Origin: Thermorudis peleae
Lineage (GTDB): Bacteria; Chloroflexota; Chloroflexia; Thermomicrobiales; Thermomicrobiaceae
Reading direction: 5' to 3'
DNA length: 64,000 nt
NCBI RefSeq assembly: GCF_000744775.1
Contig: NZ_JQMP01000003.1
Location: forward strand, 744,001-808,000
Position 1 is the stretch's first letter. Every line of letters begins with the position of its first letter. Of this stretch, positions 27,310 to 35,636 are shown piece after piece. The notes under the pieces were generated by a model. It was not told the DNA's origin, did not search any database, and was given only the letters and a program-made list of their open reading frames with translations. A program made the position numbers and the translations under genes.

Positions 27310-28512
27310 GTGCCACAACTGAGTAGTGGATACGGTCTTGCACCCTGGTACCGGAAAGGGAGCCAATTGGACGCGATTTGGATTGGGCAAAACGGGCAAC
27401 GTGCTGCGCGACGTTGGGCGGGGCTGGATCTTTATCTTCTCGTGACAACGGCAGTCCTGGTTGGCTTCGGGATTGTCGTTATCTGGAGTGCTGAAGGAGC
27501 TGGTCCACTGCGGCTTGGCAGTCTGGCCGTCCGTCAAGCGCTCTACGCACTGGTTGGCTTGCCACTTTTACTTGGTCTGACCTGGCTTGATTACCGCTAC
27601 ATTAAATCGCTGGCCTGGGTGATTTATGCAGTGTCTCTTTTCTTGTTAGCACTTGTTGACTTTATCGGCACGAACATCGGTGGTTCAGTTCGTTGGATTG
27701 ATATTGGGCCGGTTAGTCTTCAACCGTCTGAGCCAGCCAAACTTGGGGTTTTGATTGCGCTTGCAACGCTCTTGGCTGATCACTGGGAGGAGATGCACCG
27801 GTTCACCTGGTTTGTCCTCTCCGGTGTGCTCGTTGCGATTCCAATGGGGCTTGTCTACCAGCAGCCTGACCTCGGCACGGCCGGTGTTTTTGCAGCGATC
27901 TGGCTTGCCCTTATTTTGGTCTCACCGGTGCGCAAGCGATATGTATTTGCGCTTCTCCTTGCCTCTCCTGCCGTTGCACTGTTTGCCTGGCGCTACGTTT
28001 TGCATGACTACATGCGGCAGCGACTCCTCATTTCATTCCACCCTGAACGCGATTACTTTGGTGCTGGGTTCAATATCATTCAAGCGCAAATTACGATTGG
28101 GACGGGCGGACTGCTCGGGAATGGATTGGCTGGCAGCATGCAGAGCCAGCTCGGGTTGCTACGTGTTCGAACAACAGATTTCATCTTCGCCCACGCCATG
28201 GGTATGTTCGGTTTTGTTGGTGCACTGGCCTTGATTGTGGCCTATGGTTTGCTGCTTTGGCGGCTGATTCATGTCGCTGAAGTTGCCGCTGATCGCTTCG
28301 CGCACCTCCTGGCGATTGGCGTGACAGTCATGATCTTTTTCCAGGCATTTGTCAATATGGGAATGAATGTTGGTATTATGCCGGTGACTGGCCTACCCCT
28401 GCCGTTTGTTAGCTATGGTGGCAGCTCACTCTGGACGCTATTTGCTAGCCTTGGCATCATGCAAAGCATTCTGGTGCACCGTCGCCGGATCGGCTTTCGT
28501 GCTTTTGGGTGA
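27310..28512 (+). CDS. rodA: Rod shape-determining SEDS protein RodA
   Basis: 400 residues with ten or so membrane helices and the SEDS landmarks. These are RWIDIGPVSLQPSEPAKLG, VYQQPDLGTAGVF, a large loop with GAGFNIIQAQITIGTGGLLGNG, and the C-terminal GMNVGIMPVTGLPLPFVSYGGSS. RodA polymerises glycan strands from lipid II with a class B PBP during elongation. The start is uncertain: GTG 27310 gives a 19-residue leader, while TTG 27367 directly follows GGGAG. It begins 3 bases after the amine oxidase gene. Works with MreB in the same window. Confidence 0.94.
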   Translation: MPQLSSGYGLAPWYRKGSQLDAIWIGQNGQRAARRWAGLDLYLLVTTAVLVGFGIVVIWSAEGAGPLRLGSLAVRQALYALVGLPLLLGLTWLDYRYIKSLAWVIYAVSLFLLALVDFIGTNIGGSVRWIDIGPVSLQPSEPAKLGVLIALATLLADHWEEMHRFTWFVLSGVLVAIPMGLVYQQPDLGTAGVFAAIWLALILVSPVRKRYVFALLLASPAVALFAWRYVLHDYMRQRLLISFHPERDYFGAGFNIIQAQITIGTGGLLGNGLAGSMQSQLGLLRVRTTDFIFAHAMGMFGFVGALALIVAYGLLLWRLIHVAEVAADRFAHLLAIGVTVMIFFQAFVNMGMNVGIMPVTGLPLPFVSYGGSSLWTLFASLGIMQSILVHRRRIGFRAFG

Positions 28513-28613
28513 TAACCTCCGATAGTCCGCATGGCTTCCACGTTGTTCGTCTTTCACGATCTCTAACTGGTGTTTGTATGCAATCGAGGTGTGTTCTGTA
28601 CAACATGGGAAAG

Positions 28614-28647
28614 CACAAGGGCCGGTGCAACGTCGCCGGCCCTTGTG
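28614..28647. terminator. 12-bp hairpin between convergent rodA and pdxT
   Basis: CACAAGGGCCGG (28614-28625) pairs exactly with 28636-28647 around a 10-base loop. It lies midway in the 169-base gap between two convergent genes, so it probably serves both. No clear T-run. Confidence 0.75.
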
Positions 28648-28681
28648 GCTGGAGGGGGTGAGAAGGATAAAGCGGGTGGTG

Positions 28682-29305
28682 CTATAGGGTCGTTGCTGGT
28701 TCAGTGCGCGCAACGAAAGCTCGCGCGAGTGCGCAGAACCAGGCATGGAATCGATCATCTTCGGCAAGCTCAGGATGGAACGCGGTGCCGATGATATTGC
28801 CTTGCCGTACGGCAACAACTGTACCGTCAGCGAGTTGCGCTAATGGCTCAACATTTGGCCCAATCCATGAGACGATTGGGGCGCGAATGAAGACCGCCCG
28901 GAACGGTTGGGGACCAAGGACAGGGATAGCAAGGTCGACCTCGAAACTCTCGGGTTGTGGTCCAAAGGCATTGCGTCGGACCACGATGTCGAGCACGCCA
29001 AGCAGCGGCTGCGTGCGGGCACGTGTTTCAGCATCAACGTCGCGGGCCAGGACGATCATGCCAGCGCATGTGCCCCAGACCGGCATGCCGCTCTGAATAC
29101 ACTCGAGCAGCTTGTCACGCAGAGCAAAGCGCTCGATGAGCCGACCGATTGTTGTGCTTTCACCGCCAGGGATGATAAGTCCAGCGAGACCATCAAGATG
29201 GTGCGGGAGTCTCACCTCTCGAGCTGCGACACCAAGCCGCTCGAGTACCGCAAGGTGTTCCTTGAAGTCGCCCTGCAACGCAAGAACCCCGATGGTTGGT
29301 TCCAT
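28682..29305 (-). CDS. pdxT: Pyridoxal 5'-phosphate synthase glutaminase subunit
   Basis: 207 residues. Class I glutaminase fold: GVLALQGDFKEH, IIPGGESTTIGRL, nucleophile Cys in WGTCAGMIVLA and the His/Glu of TAFHPELAEDDR. It releases ammonia from glutamine for PdxS, and the two make a 12+12 complex. Starts 12 bases after pdxS. Full length and intact. Confidence 0.97.
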   Translation of the reverse strand: MEPTIGVLALQGDFKEHLAVLERLGVAAREVRLPHHLDGLAGLIIPGGESTTIGRLIERFALRDKLLECIQSGMPVWGTCAGMIVLARDVDAETRARTQPLLGVLDIVVRRNAFGPQPESFEVDLAIPVLGPQPFRAVFIRAPIVSWIGPNVEPLAQLADGTVVAVRQGNIIGTAFHPELAEDDRFHAWFCALARAFVARTEPATTL

Positions 29306-29317
29306 CGCTGTACTCCT

Positions 29318-30223
29318 TTACCAGCCTCGCGGTGCAAGACGTTGCTCGGCAGGGATCGCGGCGAGATCGACGCCACGCATTGGCTCGCCTAAGCCTCGGC
29401 TCACTTCGGCAAGAATCTTGGGATCGCGATAGTGCGTGACGGCCTCAACGATCGCTCGGGCGCGCTTGAAGGGATTCTCTGACTTGAAGATGCCCGATCC
29501 GACGAAGACCCCTTCAGCTCCAAGTTGCATCACAAGTGCGGCATCGGCAGGAGTTGCGACACCGCCGGCGCAGAAAAGTGGCACTGGTAACCAGCCAGTC
29601 TCCGCTACTTCGCGAACGATTTCGTAGGGGGCGCCGAGTTCTTTGGAAGCTGTCATGAGCTCCTCATGAGGCATTGCCTGCAAGCGGCGGATACCGTCAA
29701 TAATTTCGCGCAGGTGACGTACCGCTTCGACAATATTGCCCGTGCCAGCCTCTCCCTTGCTCCGAATCATCGCGGCACCTTCACCAATGCGGCGCAGGGC
29801 TTCACCTAAGTCTCGGGCACCGCAAACGAATGGTGTGCGGAACGGGTGCTTATCAATGTGGTAACGGTCGTCGGCTGGAGTCAGCACTTCGCTTTCGTCG
29901 ATGAAGTCGATCCCCAGCGCCTCAAGGATTTGAGCCTCGACGAAGTGGCCAATGCGCACCTTGGCCATGACTGGGATCGTTACCGCTTCTTTAATGCGCA
30001 AAATCAATTCGGGATCACTCATCCGTGCAACGCCGCCTTCACGGCGAATGTCAGCTGGCACTCGCTCCAAGGCCATGACGGCAACTGCGCCAGCTTCTTC
30101 GGCAAGCTTGGCCTGATCAGGCGTGACCACATCCATAATCACGCCACCTTTGAGCATTTGGGCAAGGCCAACCTTTGTCTTCCAGGTTGCCTTTTCACCG
30201 TGGCCATTTGGTGTCACGCTCAT
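29318..30223 (-). CDS. pdxS: Pyridoxal 5'-phosphate synthase lyase subunit
   Basis: 301 residues, a beta/alpha barrel. Visible catalytic stretches are [23 protein letters not shown] with the Lys that binds ribose-5-P, and [12 protein letters not shown] with the second Lys. It makes PLP from ribose-5-phosphate, glyceraldehyde-3-phosphate and ammonia, so it draws on the pentose-phosphate pathway encoded at 8595-15895. Begins 36 bases after the pdxR stop. Confidence 0.98.
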
Positions 30224-30259
30224 GCTGTCTTCCTCCTTTCTGCACTGTTCTTGCCTCTC

Positions 30260-31762
30260 CTAAACCAGTGGTCGAGCGAGCACGGCCGTGCGATCGCGTC
30301 CGAATCGGTTCGCGCGTAACGTGTGAATGGCCTGAGCAAGTCGTTTGATGCCTTCCTCTATCTGATCTGGATTGGGATAGGTGAAGTTCAGCCGGAGGAA
30401 CTCGGCGCCTCCTCCATCGGGAAAGCAACTTTCTCCCGGTGTGAATGCAACCCCGTGTCGCGCCGCCTCTGGGAGGAGGTCGCGCGCTCGCAACCCGTCC
30501 TGCAGCTGACACCAAAGGTAAAGTCCACCTCCAGGCCGTTCCCAGGCCAAGACGTCAGCGGCATATGCCTCCAGCGCGCTGAGCATACGATCTCGCCGTA
30601 CTGGGTAGGTTTGGCGGAGACGCTCGATATGCTGGTCGAGCAGACCACGAGTGAGGAAAGCCCAAACAGCCCATTGGGCGAGCGCGTTGGTGTCAAGGTC
30701 GACGAGTTGTTTCAAGGTGCTGAGGCGTTCAATGACCGGCTGTGGACCAACAACCCAGCCGATACGAAAACCCGGGAAGAGCACCTTTGAGACAGTACTG
30801 AGGTAGATCACAATGCCAGCGGTATCAAGAGAGAGCAGTGATGGCAGTGCTGGTCCCTCGTAGCGCAGCATGCTGTAGGGATCATCCTCGATGATGGGAA
30901 TCTGATACCGAATAGCTATATCAAGGAGCCGTTGCCGTCGCTCGAGGGAAAGGGTTGTACCAGTCGGATTTTGGAACGTTGGAAGGGTGTAGATGAGCTT
31001 AGGACGACGACGCTGCACCATATCTTCGAGCACGCTGACATGCATCCCGTGGCGGTCCACAGGTATTGGCAAGAAGCGTGCACCAATTGCTCGGAAGACG
31101 TGGAGGGCGCCGAGATAGGTCGGCGATTCAACAGCAACGACGTCGCCAGGTTCGAGCAAGGCGCGGGCGAGTAAGTAGAGCCCTTGCTGCGAGCCCGAGA
31201 CGACGAGGACGTGCGCGGCGGTCGTTCTGGCACCATGCTGACGCAGGTATTGCGCGATAGCTTCACGGAGTGGCGGGTATCCCTCAGTAGGACAGTACTG
31301 GAGGAGTGATTGGCCCTCGTGGTGCAATGCCTCGTCGAGCAGGGCACGAACGGTCTCCACTGGGTAGAACTCAGGAGCAGGAGCGCCGGTAGCAAAGCTG
31401 ATGACATCCGGTCGGGCCGATACAACCATCGTGTCATAGAGCAATGGATCACGCATAACTGTCGTAATTGGCGTAAAAAATTGAGCCCAGGCAACCGACG
31501 AGCCAAGTGGTTGTGGCGAAGGCTGTGGTTCAGCAACGATCGTGCCGCGGCCAACGTGGCCGACAATCAAGCCTTCAGCCGCGAGTTCGCGATAGGCACT
31601 CACGACCGTAGTCCGGTTGACGCCGAGCATTGCCGCTAAACGGCGCTCTGGAGGGAGCCGTGTGCCCGGTGGGAGTTCGCCGGAACGAATCTGCTCGCGA
31701 AGTTGCTCGGCAATCTGCCGGTAAAACGGAATAGAGCTTGTGCGATCAAGCGTCAGTCGCAT
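30260..31762 (-). CDS. pdxR: MocR-family PLP-binding regulator, likely PdxR
   Basis: 500 residues. An N-terminal GntR winged helix (about 1-75: IPFYRQIAEQLREQIRSGELPPGTRLPPERRLA) is joined by a linker to a fold-type I aminotransferase-like domain (about 115-490) with the PLP Lys in YLSTVSKVLFPGFRIGW. MocR/PdxR proteins sense PLP and control pdxST; the operon context pdxR > pdxS > pdxT makes this reading strong. ATG 31762 follows a near-perfect AAAGGAGG. Repeated ATCCAAT half-sites surround its start and its upstream region, suggesting autoregulation. Confidence 0.92.
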   Translation of the reverse strand: MRLTLDRTSSIPFYRQIAEQLREQIRSGELPPGTRLPPERRLAAMLGVNRTTVVSAYRELAAEGLIVGHVGRGTIVAEPQPSPQPLGSSVAWAQFFTPITTVMRDPLLYDTMVVSARPDVISFATGAPAPEFYPVETVRALLDEALHHEGQSLLQYCPTEGYPPLREAIAQYLRQHGARTTAAHVLVVSGSQQGLYLLARALLEPGDVVAVESPTYLGALHVFRAIGARFLPIPVDRHGMHVSVLEDMVQRRRPKLIYTLPTFQNPTGTTLSLERRQRLLDIAIRYQIPIIEDDPYSMLRYEGPALPSLLSLDTAGIVIYLSTVSKVLFPGFRIGWVVGPQPVIERLSTLKQLVDLDTNALAQWAVWAFLTRGLLDQHIERLRQTYPVRRDRMLSALEAYAADVLAWERPGGGLYLWCQLQDGLRARDLLPEAARHGVAFTPGESCFPDGGGAEFLRLNFTYPNPDQIEEGIKRLAQAIHTLRANRFGRDRTAVLARPLV

Positions 31763-31780
31763 CCAATCCTCCTTTGGATG
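31760..31780. promoter_or_regulatory. pdxR: Putative PdxR operator over the pdxR start codon
   Basis: CATCCAA (31760-31766) and TTGGATG (31774-31780) form an inverted repeat with a 7-base spacer that covers the ribosome site and start codon of pdxR. The same half-site recurs at 31847-31880. Binding here could block translation initiation or elongation by roadblock. Confidence 0.5.
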
Positions 31781-31846
31781 CCCCATTTACTTAGCGTAGT
31801 CTCACGCTACCAGGCAAGAAAAGAGCCAATTCTGGCGATCCCCTCA

Positions 31847-31880
31847 CCATCCAATCATGCCATTTTTCATAATTGGATGG
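31847..31880. promoter_or_regulatory. Putative PdxR operator between divergent pdxR and PucR-type gene
   Basis: CCATCCAAT (31847-31855) and ATTGGATGG (31872-31880) are exact complements, 16 bases apart, sharing the ATCCAAT core with the site at the pdxR start. The right half overlaps a possible -35 (TTGGAT 31873-31878) that is 16 bases from TATACT (31895-31900), the likely -10 of the PucR-type gene. Both divergent genes could therefore respond to one regulator. Confidence 0.55.
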
Positions 31881-31942
31881 TAATGCTTGCTTAGTATACT
31901 TCCCTGCAAAAGAAAGCCGGCGCGATGGCCAAGGGGTGAGAC

Positions 31943-33490
31943 GTGTCGGACATCTTGATACGCGATCTTTGCCGCTGGGATCGGCGGCTTCAGCTTGTTG
32001 TTCCACGTGATCAACCAGTTGACCCAGTGCTCGATCGCCCAATTTCGTGGGCAGTCGCTGTTCGTGCTGTCCCACCACACCTGCCGCCCTTGCGTGGCGA
32101 CGAGTTGGTTATTCTTTCCCAGCGTGTATTGACAGAGATTGAATCCGCTGGTGCGACAAGTCGCGATGCATTGGTGCGTGCGCTTGAACGTGCGCCGATC
32201 GCAGCGCTCGTCACCGAGGCCGGGTTACGCGAACAGCTCGTGGTAACGTTCCCGCTTCTGCTCTTCCCTGGTCCCCTCCCGTTCGACTTCGATGCCACCC
32301 TGAACCGTCTGCTTACTGAGCAACGTAGTGCACTCTTTCGGCTTTCAAGCCAACTGTCACGTGATCTCTCCCGTGTCGCTGTGAGCGGTGACATTGCAGC
32401 AGTCCTGCGGGCAGCATCGAGCGCGAGCGGCCGCAGCCTCCTACTCCAGGATGCTGAAGGGCAGGTTGTGGCACAGAGCGGCGGATTGCTCGAGCCATTG
32501 CCAGCGCATCAGTTGTTGCGGATTCATCCATACCCAGCAGTAACGCGGCTGGGATTGTCAGAAGGAGAAGCGGTTGCCACAACCATATTGCCGGATCGTC
32601 GCCCGCTCTATCTCATCCTCGCCTCACCTGAGGCGACAACGGAACAAGATCGCCTCACGCTTTCGCTCACGGCTGGGGTGTGTACGAGTTTGCTTGCTCG
32701 TGTTGCTACCCGCGATGCGCGCGCAGTGCCGGGACTTCGGGAATTGCTTGAAGGCAAAGTGCATGGCGAGCAAGCACTTGCAGCTGTTGCCCAGCGACTC
32801 AGACTTGATGTCGATCGCTCAATTATCGTTGGCCTCGCTGCTGGAACTGCCGGCCTGCATGACGTCGAGCATGTGTTGTTGCGCCAGGTGGGAGAAGATC
32901 GACTGGTACGGTTTGAGCAAAGCGTTGCGTTCGTCAGTGAAGCTGGTGTGGTGGATGACCTTGCGAGCGCACTTCGTCGTGTCCCTCACCGTGATGGAGC
33001 ACGCTGGGCAGTTGCGTTGAGTGAACCTGTTGCTTCACTGCGTGATGTGGCAGCAGGATTGCGTCAAGCACAGTATCTCCTTGCCCTCTGGCACTCAGGC
33101 GCTTTGCCTGGGGGTGTCTTGCGCTTCCATGTTGTCGAGGAGACAGGCCTCTACAGCTTGCTCTATGCCCTGTGGGGCCATCCGGCTGCAGAGCGTTTTC
33201 GCCAAGCAGTACTTGGACGCTTGGCTGTGCGCGGGAATCGCAACGCCGAGTTACTCGAAACACTCGAAGCCTATCTTACTTACGGCAGCGCAGGCGAAGT
33301 TGCGGCACGCCTTGGCGTGCATCGCAACACTGTCGGCTATCGCTTACATCGTATTACTGAGTTGACTGGTCGGTCTGTCGACCAGCCGCATGACCGGCTG
33401 CTGCTTCATGTCGCTGTGCTTTTGGGCCATCTCCCACCTCCTAATCGGCGCGTCGAGATTCAAGGTCGCTCGCCTGTTGGCGAAGGATGA
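31943..33490 (+). CDS. PucR-family transcriptional regulator
   Basis: 515 residues. The N-terminal purine-catabolism-regulator-like domain covers about 1-125, a GGDEF-like/cyclase-like linker lies at about 250-390, and the C-terminal PucR helix-turn-helix at about 430-495 (YLTYGSAGEVAARLGVHRNTVGYRLHRITELTG). Family members control purine, amino-acid or other catabolic operons. GTG 31943 follows AAGGGGTGAG. Divergent from pdxR with shared operator sites. Its last 50 bases overlap the convergent hypothetical gene. Confidence 0.9.
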   Translation: MSDILIRDLCRWDRRLQLVVPRDQPVDPVLDRPISWAVAVRAVPPHLPPLRGDELVILSQRVLTEIESAGATSRDALVRALERAPIAALVTEAGLREQLVVTFPLLLFPGPLPFDFDATLNRLLTEQRSALFRLSSQLSRDLSRVAVSGDIAAVLRAASSASGRSLLLQDAEGQVVAQSGGLLEPLPAHQLLRIHPYPAVTRLGLSEGEAVATTILPDRRPLYLILASPEATTEQDRLTLSLTAGVCTSLLARVATRDARAVPGLRELLEGKVHGEQALAAVAQRLRLDVDRSIIVGLAAGTAGLHDVEHVLLRQVGEDRLVRFEQSVAFVSEAGVVDDLASALRRVPHRDGARWAVALSEPVASLRDVAAGLRQAQYLLALWHSGALPGGVLRFHVVEETGLYSLLYALWGHPAAERFRQAVLGRLAVRGNRNAELLETLEAYLTYGSAGEVAARLGVHRNTVGYRLHRITELTGRSVDQPHDRLLLHVAVLLGHLPPPNRRVEIQGRSPVGEG

Positions 33491-33851
33491 CGCGTTCAAG
33501 GGTAACAGTGAGCACGTCGTCGATTGAAAAGCGACACCAGCCGATCGGAACGGGCAGCTTTCCTACCCAAAACGCTCCTGCAACCAAGGGTTCAGCTTCA
33601 TCTGGTATTGTCCCGAAGGCATATCGTGGCGTTTGCGTTGTTGGGCCTGGGTTACCGAGTGGCGAGGTTGGCATCGGGCCGAGGAGTTCGCCAGAAATCA
33701 TGCTTGCAGGCGACGACCGAGGCGCCTGTGTTGCAACGCGTTGAACTGGTTGAGCTGAACCTGGCTCGAGGCGCCGTACTGTGCCAAGATAGCGGCCGTC
33801 ACGCGTGTAAACGTCCATGCCGACGCGAATGTCCCGCGTATCAAATGTCAT
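33441..33851 (-). CDS. PRC-barrel/DUF2171-like hypothetical protein
   Basis: 136 residues. The first 25 residues (IRVGMDVYTRDGRYLGTVRRLE) look like the first strands of a PRC-barrel or DUF2171 domain. A low-complexity Pro/Ser/Thr linker follows, and the second part (GAFWVGKLPVPIGWCRFSIDDVL) completes a short beta region. This suggests a barrel split by an insertion. Such domains occur in RNA-processing and stress proteins. The 3' 50 bases are antisense to the PucR gene. Alternative ATG at 33854. Confidence 0.65.
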   Translation of the reverse strand: MTFDTRDIRVGMDVYTRDGRYLGTVRRLEPGSAQPVQRVATQAPRSSPASMISGELLGPMPTSPLGNPGPTTQTPRYAFGTIPDEAEPLVAGAFWVGKLPVPIGWCRFSIDDVLTVTLERVILRQQASDLESRRAD

Positions 33852-33854
33852 CAC

Positions 33855-34157
33855 GTCTCTCCTTTGTCGAGTGCCAGTGTGCGTGCTTTCTCCTCGCGTA
33901 TAGAGCTGGCAGGTTCCTGTATGATCGCCTGAGGGCTTGACAATCTCATGGCATTGCGCTTACCCTACCGCTGTCGCATCGTGAGGGTGGGGAGAGCAGC
34001 CAATGGTAGCAATCATGCAGTTGCCCCACTGTATCTATACCGAAAACGACCGAAAGGGGGCAAAATCGACGAAAGGACGCTGAGAGCGGCAGCAAACCGT
34101 GCAATACAGTGGTTTTGGCTCACGATGATTACGATGAGAGGTGGATGAGGAGGAGCT
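33855..34157 (+). promoter_or_regulatory. Upstream region of the sugar ABC operon
   Basis: About 300 bases without a credible gene. A consensus -35 TTGACA (33937-33942) is followed after 18 bases by TACCCT (33961-33966), matching the box type seen ahead of L25. Closer to the gene, CGACCGAAAGG and CGACGAAAGGA form an imperfect direct repeat (about 34046-34076) that might be a regulator site. A short ORF here (33948-34148) looks spurious. Confidence 0.4.
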
Positions 34158-35636
34158 ATGGCGAAACAAGAGCAGCGTGGATGGTGGTCTGGGCAACCAG
34201 CACAGCTTTCACGGCGTCAGTTGCTACGTCGGGCTGCGGCACTTGGCCTTTCAGCTCCGGCGTTGAGTGCATTGCTTGCAGCCTGTGGCGGTGGAAGCGC
34301 GACGCCAACGTCAGCGCCAGCTGCGGCTCCCTCGCCGACAGCGGCAGCGACAAAGGCAAGCGGCGCTGCGAGCCCAACTGCTGCTGCCACGAGCCAAGCT
34401 GCAGCGGCAACGCCAACTAGTGCGCCAGCAGTGCTGAAGGGAACGAAGCTGAGCATCCTTCAGGCATCCTACTTTGTTCCGGCTGGGCAAGATCTCTTCA
34501 AGAACCAACTGCAACAATGGGGGAAAGAGAATAACGTTGAGGTTTCGGTTGACTTCGTGAACTGGCCTGATCTCCAGCCGAAAATCAGCGCGGCCGTTCA
34601 GGCCGGTGCAGGACCTGATATCGTCCACCTGTGGCCGACCTGGCCCTCGCTCTATGCCAATAGCCTAGTTGATGTGCATGACTTCGCTGATAAGCTTGGC
34701 AAGAGTCAGGGAGGATACTTCGATTGGGTATTGAAGAGCGCGAGCGTTGATGGCCGATGGCTGAGTGTGCCGATCGGTACCTCCACGAGCGCGCAGGTGT
34801 ATCGGATCTCTCTCTTCAAACAAGCAGGGATTGATGACCCGGTGAATAACTTCCCGGATACATGGGAGGATCTGTTCAAGGTTGGCAAGAAACTCAAGGC
34901 AATGGGCAAGCCCTTAGGGCAGGCCTTTGGCCATAGTCCTGGTGATCCGCCATCGTTCTGCTATCCCTTCATGTGGGCGTATGGGGCGATGGAAGTCAAA
35001 GAAGATGGCAAAACGGTTGCCTTCAATGTCCCCCAGTTTGTCGATGGGATGAAGTTGCTTATCCAGGCGTGGAAAGACGCATTTGATGAATCTGGCCTTT
35101 CCTGGGACGACTCGACGAATAACCGCGCCTTTTTGGCTGGCCAAATTTCGTGGACCTTTAATGGAAGCAGTATTTACCTGGCAGCGTTGAAAGATAATCC
35201 GTCACTCGCCCAGGATATTAACCATTGGATTTACCCAAAGGGACCGGCTGGGCGATTTAATAACCTTGGTAGCCAATCAATGGGGATTATGAAGTACTCC
35301 AAGAATATTGAAGGGGCAAAAGCGTTTCTTGAATGGTGGATGCAGCCTGAGCAGTTCCGTGCCTGGCTTGCTGCCCAGCAGGGCTATAACCTTGCGCCAA
35401 CGCCGCTGTATATTAACGATCCCTACTACACTTCAGATCCCAAACTGAAGGCGTATGCCGAAGTCGGGAAGTATGGGCGAAATCTCGGTTACGCGGGCTG
35501 GGGTAATCAGAAAGCGGCCGAGGTCTCAGCTCGGTATATCGTTATTGATACCTTTGCCCGAGCGATTCAATCCGGCGACGCCGCGAGTGCAATCAAGTGG
35601 GGAGCTGACCAACTCCAGCGTATTTATGGGCAATAG
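34158..35636 (+). CDS. Sugar ABC transporter substrate-binding lipoprotein, Tat type
   Basis: 492 residues. The signal has a twin-arginine motif (LSRRQLLRRAA) ahead of a hydrophobic stretch and a lipobox ending LLAAC at about residue 43. An Ala/Pro/Thr-rich linker (about 45-95) tethers it to the cell surface. The body is an extracellular solute-binding family 1 fold (GPDIVHLWPTWPSLYANSLV, FLAGQISWTFNGSS, EGAKAFLEWWM). It delivers a carbohydrate, perhaps an oligosaccharide or glycerol-phosphate-like solute, to the two permeases downstream. It is exported folded, consistent with TatA in the window. First gene of the operon. Confidence 0.94.
   Translation: MAKQEQRGWWSGQPAQLSRRQLLRRAAALGLSAPALSALLAACGGGSATPTSAPAAAPSPTAAATKASGAASPTAAATSQAAAATPTSAPAVLKGTKLSILQASYFVPAGQDLFKNQLQQWGKENNVEVSVDFVNWPDLQPKISAAVQAGAGPDIVHLWPTWPSLYANSLVDVHDFADKLGKSQGGYFDWVLKSASVDGRWLSVPIGTSTSAQVYRISLFKQAGIDDPVNNFPDTWEDLFKVGKKLKAMGKPLGQAFGHSPGDPPSFCYPFMWAYGAMEVKEDGKTVAFNVPQFVDGMKLLIQAWKDAFDESGLSWDDSTNNRAFLAGQISWTFNGSSIYLAALKDNPSLAQDINHWIYPKGPAGRFNNLGSQSMGIMKYSKNIEGAKAFLEWWMQPEQFRAWLAAQQGYNLAPTPLYINDPYYTSDPKLKAYAEVGKYGRNLGYAGWGNQKAAEVSARYIVIDTFARAIQSGDAASAIKWGADQLQRIYGQ

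Follow-up and report, generated by a model that had tools for sequence, protein, structure and literature searches.

A conserved multi-box candidate operator upstream of a MocR/PdxR-type regulator gene and pdxST in Thermorudis peleae

The stretch of Thermorudis peleae DNA analysed here (the window, 64,000 nucleotides) carries three genes in tandem on the minus strand and a divergent gene on the plus strand. The first of the three, mocR (30260-31762), encodes a MocR/PdxR-type regulator of 500 residues. Pfam matches to GntR (PF00392, 5.9e-21) and Aminotran_1_2 (PF00155, 8.9e-37) in one protein place it in the MocR subfamily, in which a GntR-type helix-turn-helix (HTH) is fused to a class I aminotransferase-like domain. 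It is followed after 36 bp by pdxS (29318-30223), encoding the lyase subunit of PLP synthase, and, 12 bp after pdxS, by pdxT (28682-29305), encoding the glutaminase subunit, so that the linkage to PLP genes typical of PdxR proteins is present. The divergent gene, pucR (31943-33490), encodes a PucR-type regulator of 515 residues with the C-terminal HTH_30 domain of PucR/CdaR-type proteins (2.2e-20) and no other Pfam domain at a threshold of 0.001. Although the list of open reading frames (ORFs) offers a longer mocR start at 31786, we placed the start at the ATG at 31762-31760 of the minus strand, because of a Shine-Dalgarno sequence, AGGAGG (31773-31768; CCTCCT on the plus strand), and the N-termini of orthologues.

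The MocR protein scored 396.7 bits against the NCBIfam PdxR model NF052282 (cut-off 320). The model was also passed by all ten MocR relatives tested, nine of them without a pdxS match in their locus, and the PdxR label therefore does not discriminate among these relatives. The nearest named relatives come from Thermalbibacter, Bacterium HR26, Thermomicrobiaceae metagenome-assembled genomes and Thermomicrobium. S325 and K326 were invariant among 17 MocR sequences of the family, and K326 is, by the fold, presumably the lysine that binds PLP. The C-terminal domain matched aminoadipate and multi-substrate aminotransferases (1x0m, 3aov, 2egy) with up to 332 bits, against 142 bits for GabR. Since its likeness to free aminotransferases exceeds that to GabR, the domain may, judging by these scores, have kept enzymatic activity or respond to a ligand different from PLP. 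GabR of Bacillus subtilis, as described in PMC5320631, has the same combination of HTH and aminotransferase-like domain and binds direct repeats; unlike the boxes described below, the sequence of its repeat is given as ATACCA (PMC4494728).

The original prediction had drawn attention to three exact copies of ATCCAAT/ATTGGAT between mocR and pucR, which lie at 31761-31767, 31849-31855 and 31872-31878, and to a near-match, TTTGGAT, at 31773-31779. It had grouped them into two inverted repeats. The one over the regulator's start codon (31760-31780) does cover the mocR ATG and has CCTCCT between its arms. The main repeat, on the pucR side, is longer than described, with perfect 10-bp arms, ACCATCCAAT-N16-ATTGGATGGT, at 31846-31881. 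Its plus-strand arm, box F (ATTGGATGGT, 31872-31881), overlaps the -35 element of a candidate pucR promoter (31873-31878). The other arm, box A (ATTGGATGGT on the minus strand, 31846-31855), is the inverted partner of F and at the same time the direct-repeat partner of box B (GAATTGGCTCTT on the minus strand, AAGAGCCAATTC as read on the plus strand, 31821-31832). Box B, which the prediction had missed, immediately precedes the presumed mocR -35 element; box A lies at a CCAA-to-TTGG distance of 22 from F and at a direct-repeat distance of 25 from B. Box C (CATCCAA, 31774-31780, minus strand) is inverted relative to A and B and lies in the presumed mocR leader, 52 bp from B and 77 bp from A. Together with box E (TTGGATG, 31760-31766, minus strand), which contains the start codon, it forms CATCCAA-N7-TTGGATG, and the Shine-Dalgarno sequence falls between these arms.

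The 7-mer ATCCAAT occurs nine times in the window against 6.7 expected, a count reached by 24 of 100 shuffles, and its clustering, three copies within 118 bp, never arose when the window was dinucleotide-shuffled 400 times. Perfect 10-bp-arm repeats with a 16-bp spacer stand at three positions in the window against 0.15 per shuffle (100 shuffles), and hence the form of the repeat alone is not unique. Its sequence, allowing up to three mismatches, was found at four places in the 21 genomes of the family (G000, G014, G016 and G020), all of them 69-119 bp upstream of a mocR match. The 200 bases upstream of mocR in the window hold four ATTGG/CCAAT pentamers, a modest excess reached by 0.74% of shuffles.

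A far larger excess was apparent across relatives. We compared 77 mocR upstream regions, namely that of the window and those of 76 of 80 named loci (L091, L093 and L109 were unusable because the start of the gene or the sequence before it is missing, and L100 because it contains a run of N). These contained 255 ATTGG/CCAAT pentamers, against a shuffle mean of 52.4 and maximum of 73, and 54 of the 77 regions held at least three, a count seen in at most seven regions after shuffling. Composite forms were likewise frequent: TTGG-N6-CCAA in 25 regions (shuffles at most 2), CCAATTGG in 19 (at most 3) and TTGG[ACT]TGG in 44 (at most 6). The pentamer was absent from 11 of the 77 regions (L102, L110, L113, L114, L129, L130, L094, L107, L112, L119 and L148), six of which are from Desulfosporosinus. 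Among the mocR orthologues of the family, every intact upstream region contained TTGG/CCAA boxes, although boxes of four bases are common by chance; L022, where the match starts inside the gene, and L023, with five bases, could not be judged.

We then learned a 12-bp motif de novo, with the expected number of sites per sequence fixed, from the upstream regions of 60 partly interdependent loci outside the family (the 80 without L074-L087, L091, L092, L093, L096, L100 and L109). This motif, nAATTGGnTGnT, was run over both strands of the 64 kb window, where its first, third and fourth best matches were 31870-31881 (box F), 31821-31832 (box B) and 31846-31857 (box A). The match over the start codon (31758-31769, box E) ranked 73rd and box C fell outside the first 400. 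The consensus of the boxes reads AATTGGMTGGT. A chance origin of the repeats was rejected on the clustering, the pentamer excess in relatives and these independent motif ranks. The prediction had named loss of the repeats from orthologous intergenic regions as the outcome that would count against it; the boxes proved to be conserved there, which lends good support, at the level of sequence, to its reading of a MocR/PdxR operator with autoregulation.

The boxes are also spaced in a preferred manner. Among the 60 non-family loci, direct repeats 24-25 bp apart formed 31 pairs (null mean 4.2, maximum 12), a third, inverted box at 50-52 bp formed 24 (null 2.6, maximum 8; peak at 50-51), and the distance from first to third box was 74-77 bp in 25 (null 1.2, maximum 7; peak at 74-75). 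The null came from 2000 randomisations in which boxes were placed at random within the span they occupied, and none of these reached the A-B, B-C or A-C counts. The spacings of the window, 25, 52 and 77, fit the preferred values within 1-3 bp. The F-A spacing (22-23 bp) showed no excess in the 60 loci (3 pairs against 3.1), and the C-E spacing (11-13 bp) a weak one (10 pairs against 5.7, with 124 of 2000 randomisations as high); C-E-like pairs are present in L088 and L095. The commonest arrangement outside the family is a direct repeat (A, B) joined by an inverted box (C) rather than the two inverted repeats first proposed, of which the F-A pair is nonetheless kept within part of the family, as follows.

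Comparison of layouts within the family covered the window and 15 loci (16 rows; L091 and L093 left out). The A-B-C core was kept in five rows, the window and four loci of the genus denoted g5, and F-A at 22-23 bp in ten of ten rows from the window's genus, g5 and Thermomicrobium (g6). Thermomicrobium kept F-A upstream of mocR at all five loci and had no box near the Shine-Dalgarno sequence. In g3 and g4 the layout differed, with TTGG-N6-CCAA near the Shine-Dalgarno sequence in six of six, and one g4 locus (L078) had an F-A-like pair at another place. The box is thus constant while its layout drifts between genera.

We assigned a candidate mocR promoter, TTTTCT-N18-TACGCT (31793-31822, minus strand), by eye from homology with relatives. 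It is poor by consensus and lies outside the three best minus-strand candidates of a lax search. Relatives with clear promoters (L097, L103, L088) have a box B that reads AATTGGcccTTGACA and abuts the -35 element, and a box C after the -10 element; counterparts of box B stand before TTGACA-like sequence in these same loci. Given its place in the presumed leader, the C-E repeat could alternatively act as RNA, folding into a hairpin whose loop holds the Shine-Dalgarno sequence and whose stem includes the AUG, and so controlling translation. A 66-nt stretch can indeed form 8 bp around AGGAGGA at -17.9 kcal/mol (z -2.11; matched by 6 of 200 shuffles), and in L095 AGGAG is surrounded by a comparable arrangement of 5 bp. 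However, the Shine-Dalgarno sequence lies outside the repeat in L135 and L147, the right arm is absent in L074-L077 though box C stays, no Rfam match was found at 28000-34200, and a hairpin would leave boxes A, B and F unexplained. We therefore hold this explanation to be very unlikely.

On the pucR side, the original prediction had one repeat overlap the presumed -35 element of pucR. A lax script search gave the candidate TTGGAT-N16-TATACT (31873-31900, plus strand), with box F on the TTGGAT; under a stricter consensus scan, 31700-31990 yielded no promoter at all. TTGG 16-17 bp before TATACT recurred in all four g5 loci (L074-L077) and in two of three g4 loci (L078 and L046), and a box thus covers a plausible pucR -35 element in seven of eight adjacent pairs from three genera (the window's, g5 and g4); in L044, the third g4 genome, TATACT is present and TTGG is not at that place. 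The arrangement was missing from the four g3 pairs examined (L080, L081, L082 and L092) and from two pairs outside the family (L086 and L089), and a fifth g3 pair (L079) had no TATACT. The overlap thus holds for some genera and fails in others.

It had further been proposed that the regulator controls this second regulator. In its dedicated form, box F would serve to place pucR under MocR/PdxR and thereby connect the supply of B6 with the targets of the PucR-type protein. The recurrent overlap in the window, g5 and g4 is what this would predict; divergent MocR-PucR pairs without a pdxS match (L086 and L089) would also fit, as would the other pucR-side candidates that the lax search gave in L080, L081, L092 and L089, where the -35 element touches a different box. 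Yet, besides the pairs from which the arrangement is missing, the boxes did not follow pucR where it has moved. In three Thermomicrobium genomes where mocR and pucR share a contig, they lie 26-35 kb apart, and none of six relocated pucR upstream regions (260 bases; L039-L043 and L049) contained ATTGG/CCAAT. As Thermomicrobium mocR keeps F-A while the relocated pucR is without boxes, the boxes belong to mocR. The pucR-facing box F is kept there with no recognisable gene start nearby: in L083, L084 and L096 no recognisable gene points away from mocR before dnaJ, which starts some 970-985 bp off, and four other ORFs of 109-254 residues in or reaching that stretch had no Pfam match (four longest ORFs per locus). 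We consider dedicated cross-control unlikely; to judge from these comparisons, pucR is probably a passive neighbour that shares promoter sequence, not a dedicated target. That the PucR-type protein itself binds the boxes is hardly credible. Its gene is the divergent neighbour of mocR at 11 of the 80 named loci and in four of the family's six genera, but boxes precede mocR at many loci without a pucR homologue (tblastn, 1e-8) and are absent at all six relocated pucR genes.

Searches for a wider regulon in the own genome (G000), with a 32-base pattern of the repeat with N16 and with a direct-repeat pattern, found no further target. The former gave one perfect place, the next best (two mismatches) being inside an ORF. 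The latter, TTGGMTGGN{9,16}RATTGG, had 18 places among the matches listed in 9 of the 21 family genomes, against three for the pattern reversed, and only two of the 18 were at mocR (G000 and G011). Of the three other G000 places, two are inside long ORFs and one lies between ORFs with facing 3' ends, and none of the three was taken as a target.

The genes beside mocR vary among relatives. A pdxS match was found in 19 of the 80 named loci, a number that short contigs may understate. Seventeen of these loci belong to the family, as judged from the title or from the presence of the same contig among the family genomes, and two are from Anaerolineae (L088 and L095). In a tree of the window and 45 of the 80 loci, chosen by hand, the window belongs to a group of 18 rows (100/98), of which 16 carry pdxST; the six loci in this tree whose upstream regions have no ATTGG/CCAAT pentamer fall in three separate parts. 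A survey of neighbours in other loci covered 20 proteins, one of them a PucR, and found AzlC (L094, L099, L128 and L132), aminotransferases (L104, L108, L120, L123 and L127), PhzF with an Asp/Glu racemase (L115), an ECF S component (L097), an ABC ATPase (L103), a GNAT acetyltransferase (L098) and others. In L104, L120 and L123 the aminotransferase ORF overlaps mocR, and its matched domain lies beyond the mocR end. Outside the family, divergent MocR-PucR pairs occur in L089 (4334-5818) and L086 (1-543), with no pdxS match in the stretch (4.1 kb for L086); MocR and PucR may have been paired before the pdxST linkage arose, or independently of it.

According to PMC5320631, PdxR proteins of several species, in the apo form, switch on pdxST and repress pdxR from the intergenic region that the two share. 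PLP counteracts this, and the apo-protein favours direct repeats while the PLP form favours inverted ones. The locus resembles the PdxR-pdxST systems described there (Corynebacterium, Listeria, Bacillus clausii and Streptococcus) in its MocR-type protein, its pdxST linkage, the direct and/or inverted boxes near promoters and the autoregulation, which is here predicted. It differs in gene order. The usual, though not universal, divergon, with pdxR and pdxST on either side of a common intergenic region (PMC5320631), is not found, since mocR and pdxS share a strand both in the window and in the other pdxS-bearing loci; mocR, pdxS and pdxT form a presumed operon and the divergent gene is of PucR type. 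The order direct, direct, inverted corresponds to the most frequent of the three-box classes of Suvorova and Rodionov 2016, with 245 regulons (PMC5320631, Table 2), and most MocR motifs contain TGT or TGG (PMC5320631); the arrangement in the window fits these published classes with direct and inverted boxes. 'Chloroflex', 'Thermomicrob', 'Sphaerobacter' and 'PucR' are absent from the main text of PMC5320631, whose supplements may include this group, and among the titles and abstract openings listed from the open-licence literature, supplements aside, none describes this operator.

Taken together, these results make it quite probable that the repeats are a multi-box operator of the adjacent MocR/PdxR-type protein, which would autoregulate the presumed mocR-pdxS-pdxT operon. 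By the comparisons made here, the operator is real and conserved and belongs to a known kind; the order of the genes around it is unusual. Its core would be A-B, a direct repeat that reaches as far as the presumed mocR -35 element; the inverted box C, with E, would lie just downstream of the presumed transcription start, over the Shine-Dalgarno sequence and start codon; and the inverted box F would complete the 10-bp-arm palindrome with A. We infer that the aminotransferase-like domain lets the protein sense PLP and that its binding to the boxes switches the operon; mocR-pdxST would be repressed when PLP is plentiful, as feedback on the whole operon. Opposite control of mocR and pdxST would be impossible in the usual way, because one promoter would serve both. 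Binding at F would also hinder pucR, through shared promoter sequence and not by a dedicated link, since F lies on the -35 element of a plausible divergent promoter in this genus and two others. A fuller scheme, which we regard as rather speculative, is a two-state PLP switch: the apo-protein on A-B would drive mocR-pdxST, and the PLP form would prefer F-A and C-E, covering the pucR -35 element and the mocR start, with the box and much of the spacing grammar kept in several phyla as adjacent genes were exchanged.

The locus provides a concrete candidate operator for control of B6 synthesis in Thermomicrobiaceae. A MocR box and spacing are common to several phyla (Chloroflexota with Thermomicrobiota, Bacillota, Acidobacteriota, Calditrichota and others) despite differing adjacent genes. 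The pucR side carries a warning, in that a gene's position on the same intergenic region as an operator says little about whether that operator controls it.

Two further observations concern pucR. The relocated genes in L039, L041, L042 and L049 carry GCTGGCAAYGGCGCCAGC some 35-50 bp before the start, and four of its five exact matches in the 21 family genomes are upstream of relocated pucR; at up to two mismatches this palindrome did not exceed its reversed control, with 76 matches in the 21 genomes against 91. In the window, a gene for a protein of 137 residues (33441-33854, minus strand), without a Pfam or NCBIfam match, is convergent to pucR. Relatives of this protein were found at 17 of 19 pucR loci of four other genera, including Thermomicrobium with its relocated pucR; the two loci without one (L078 and L045) are a single contig that ends with pucR. 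The two genes seem to travel as a pair.
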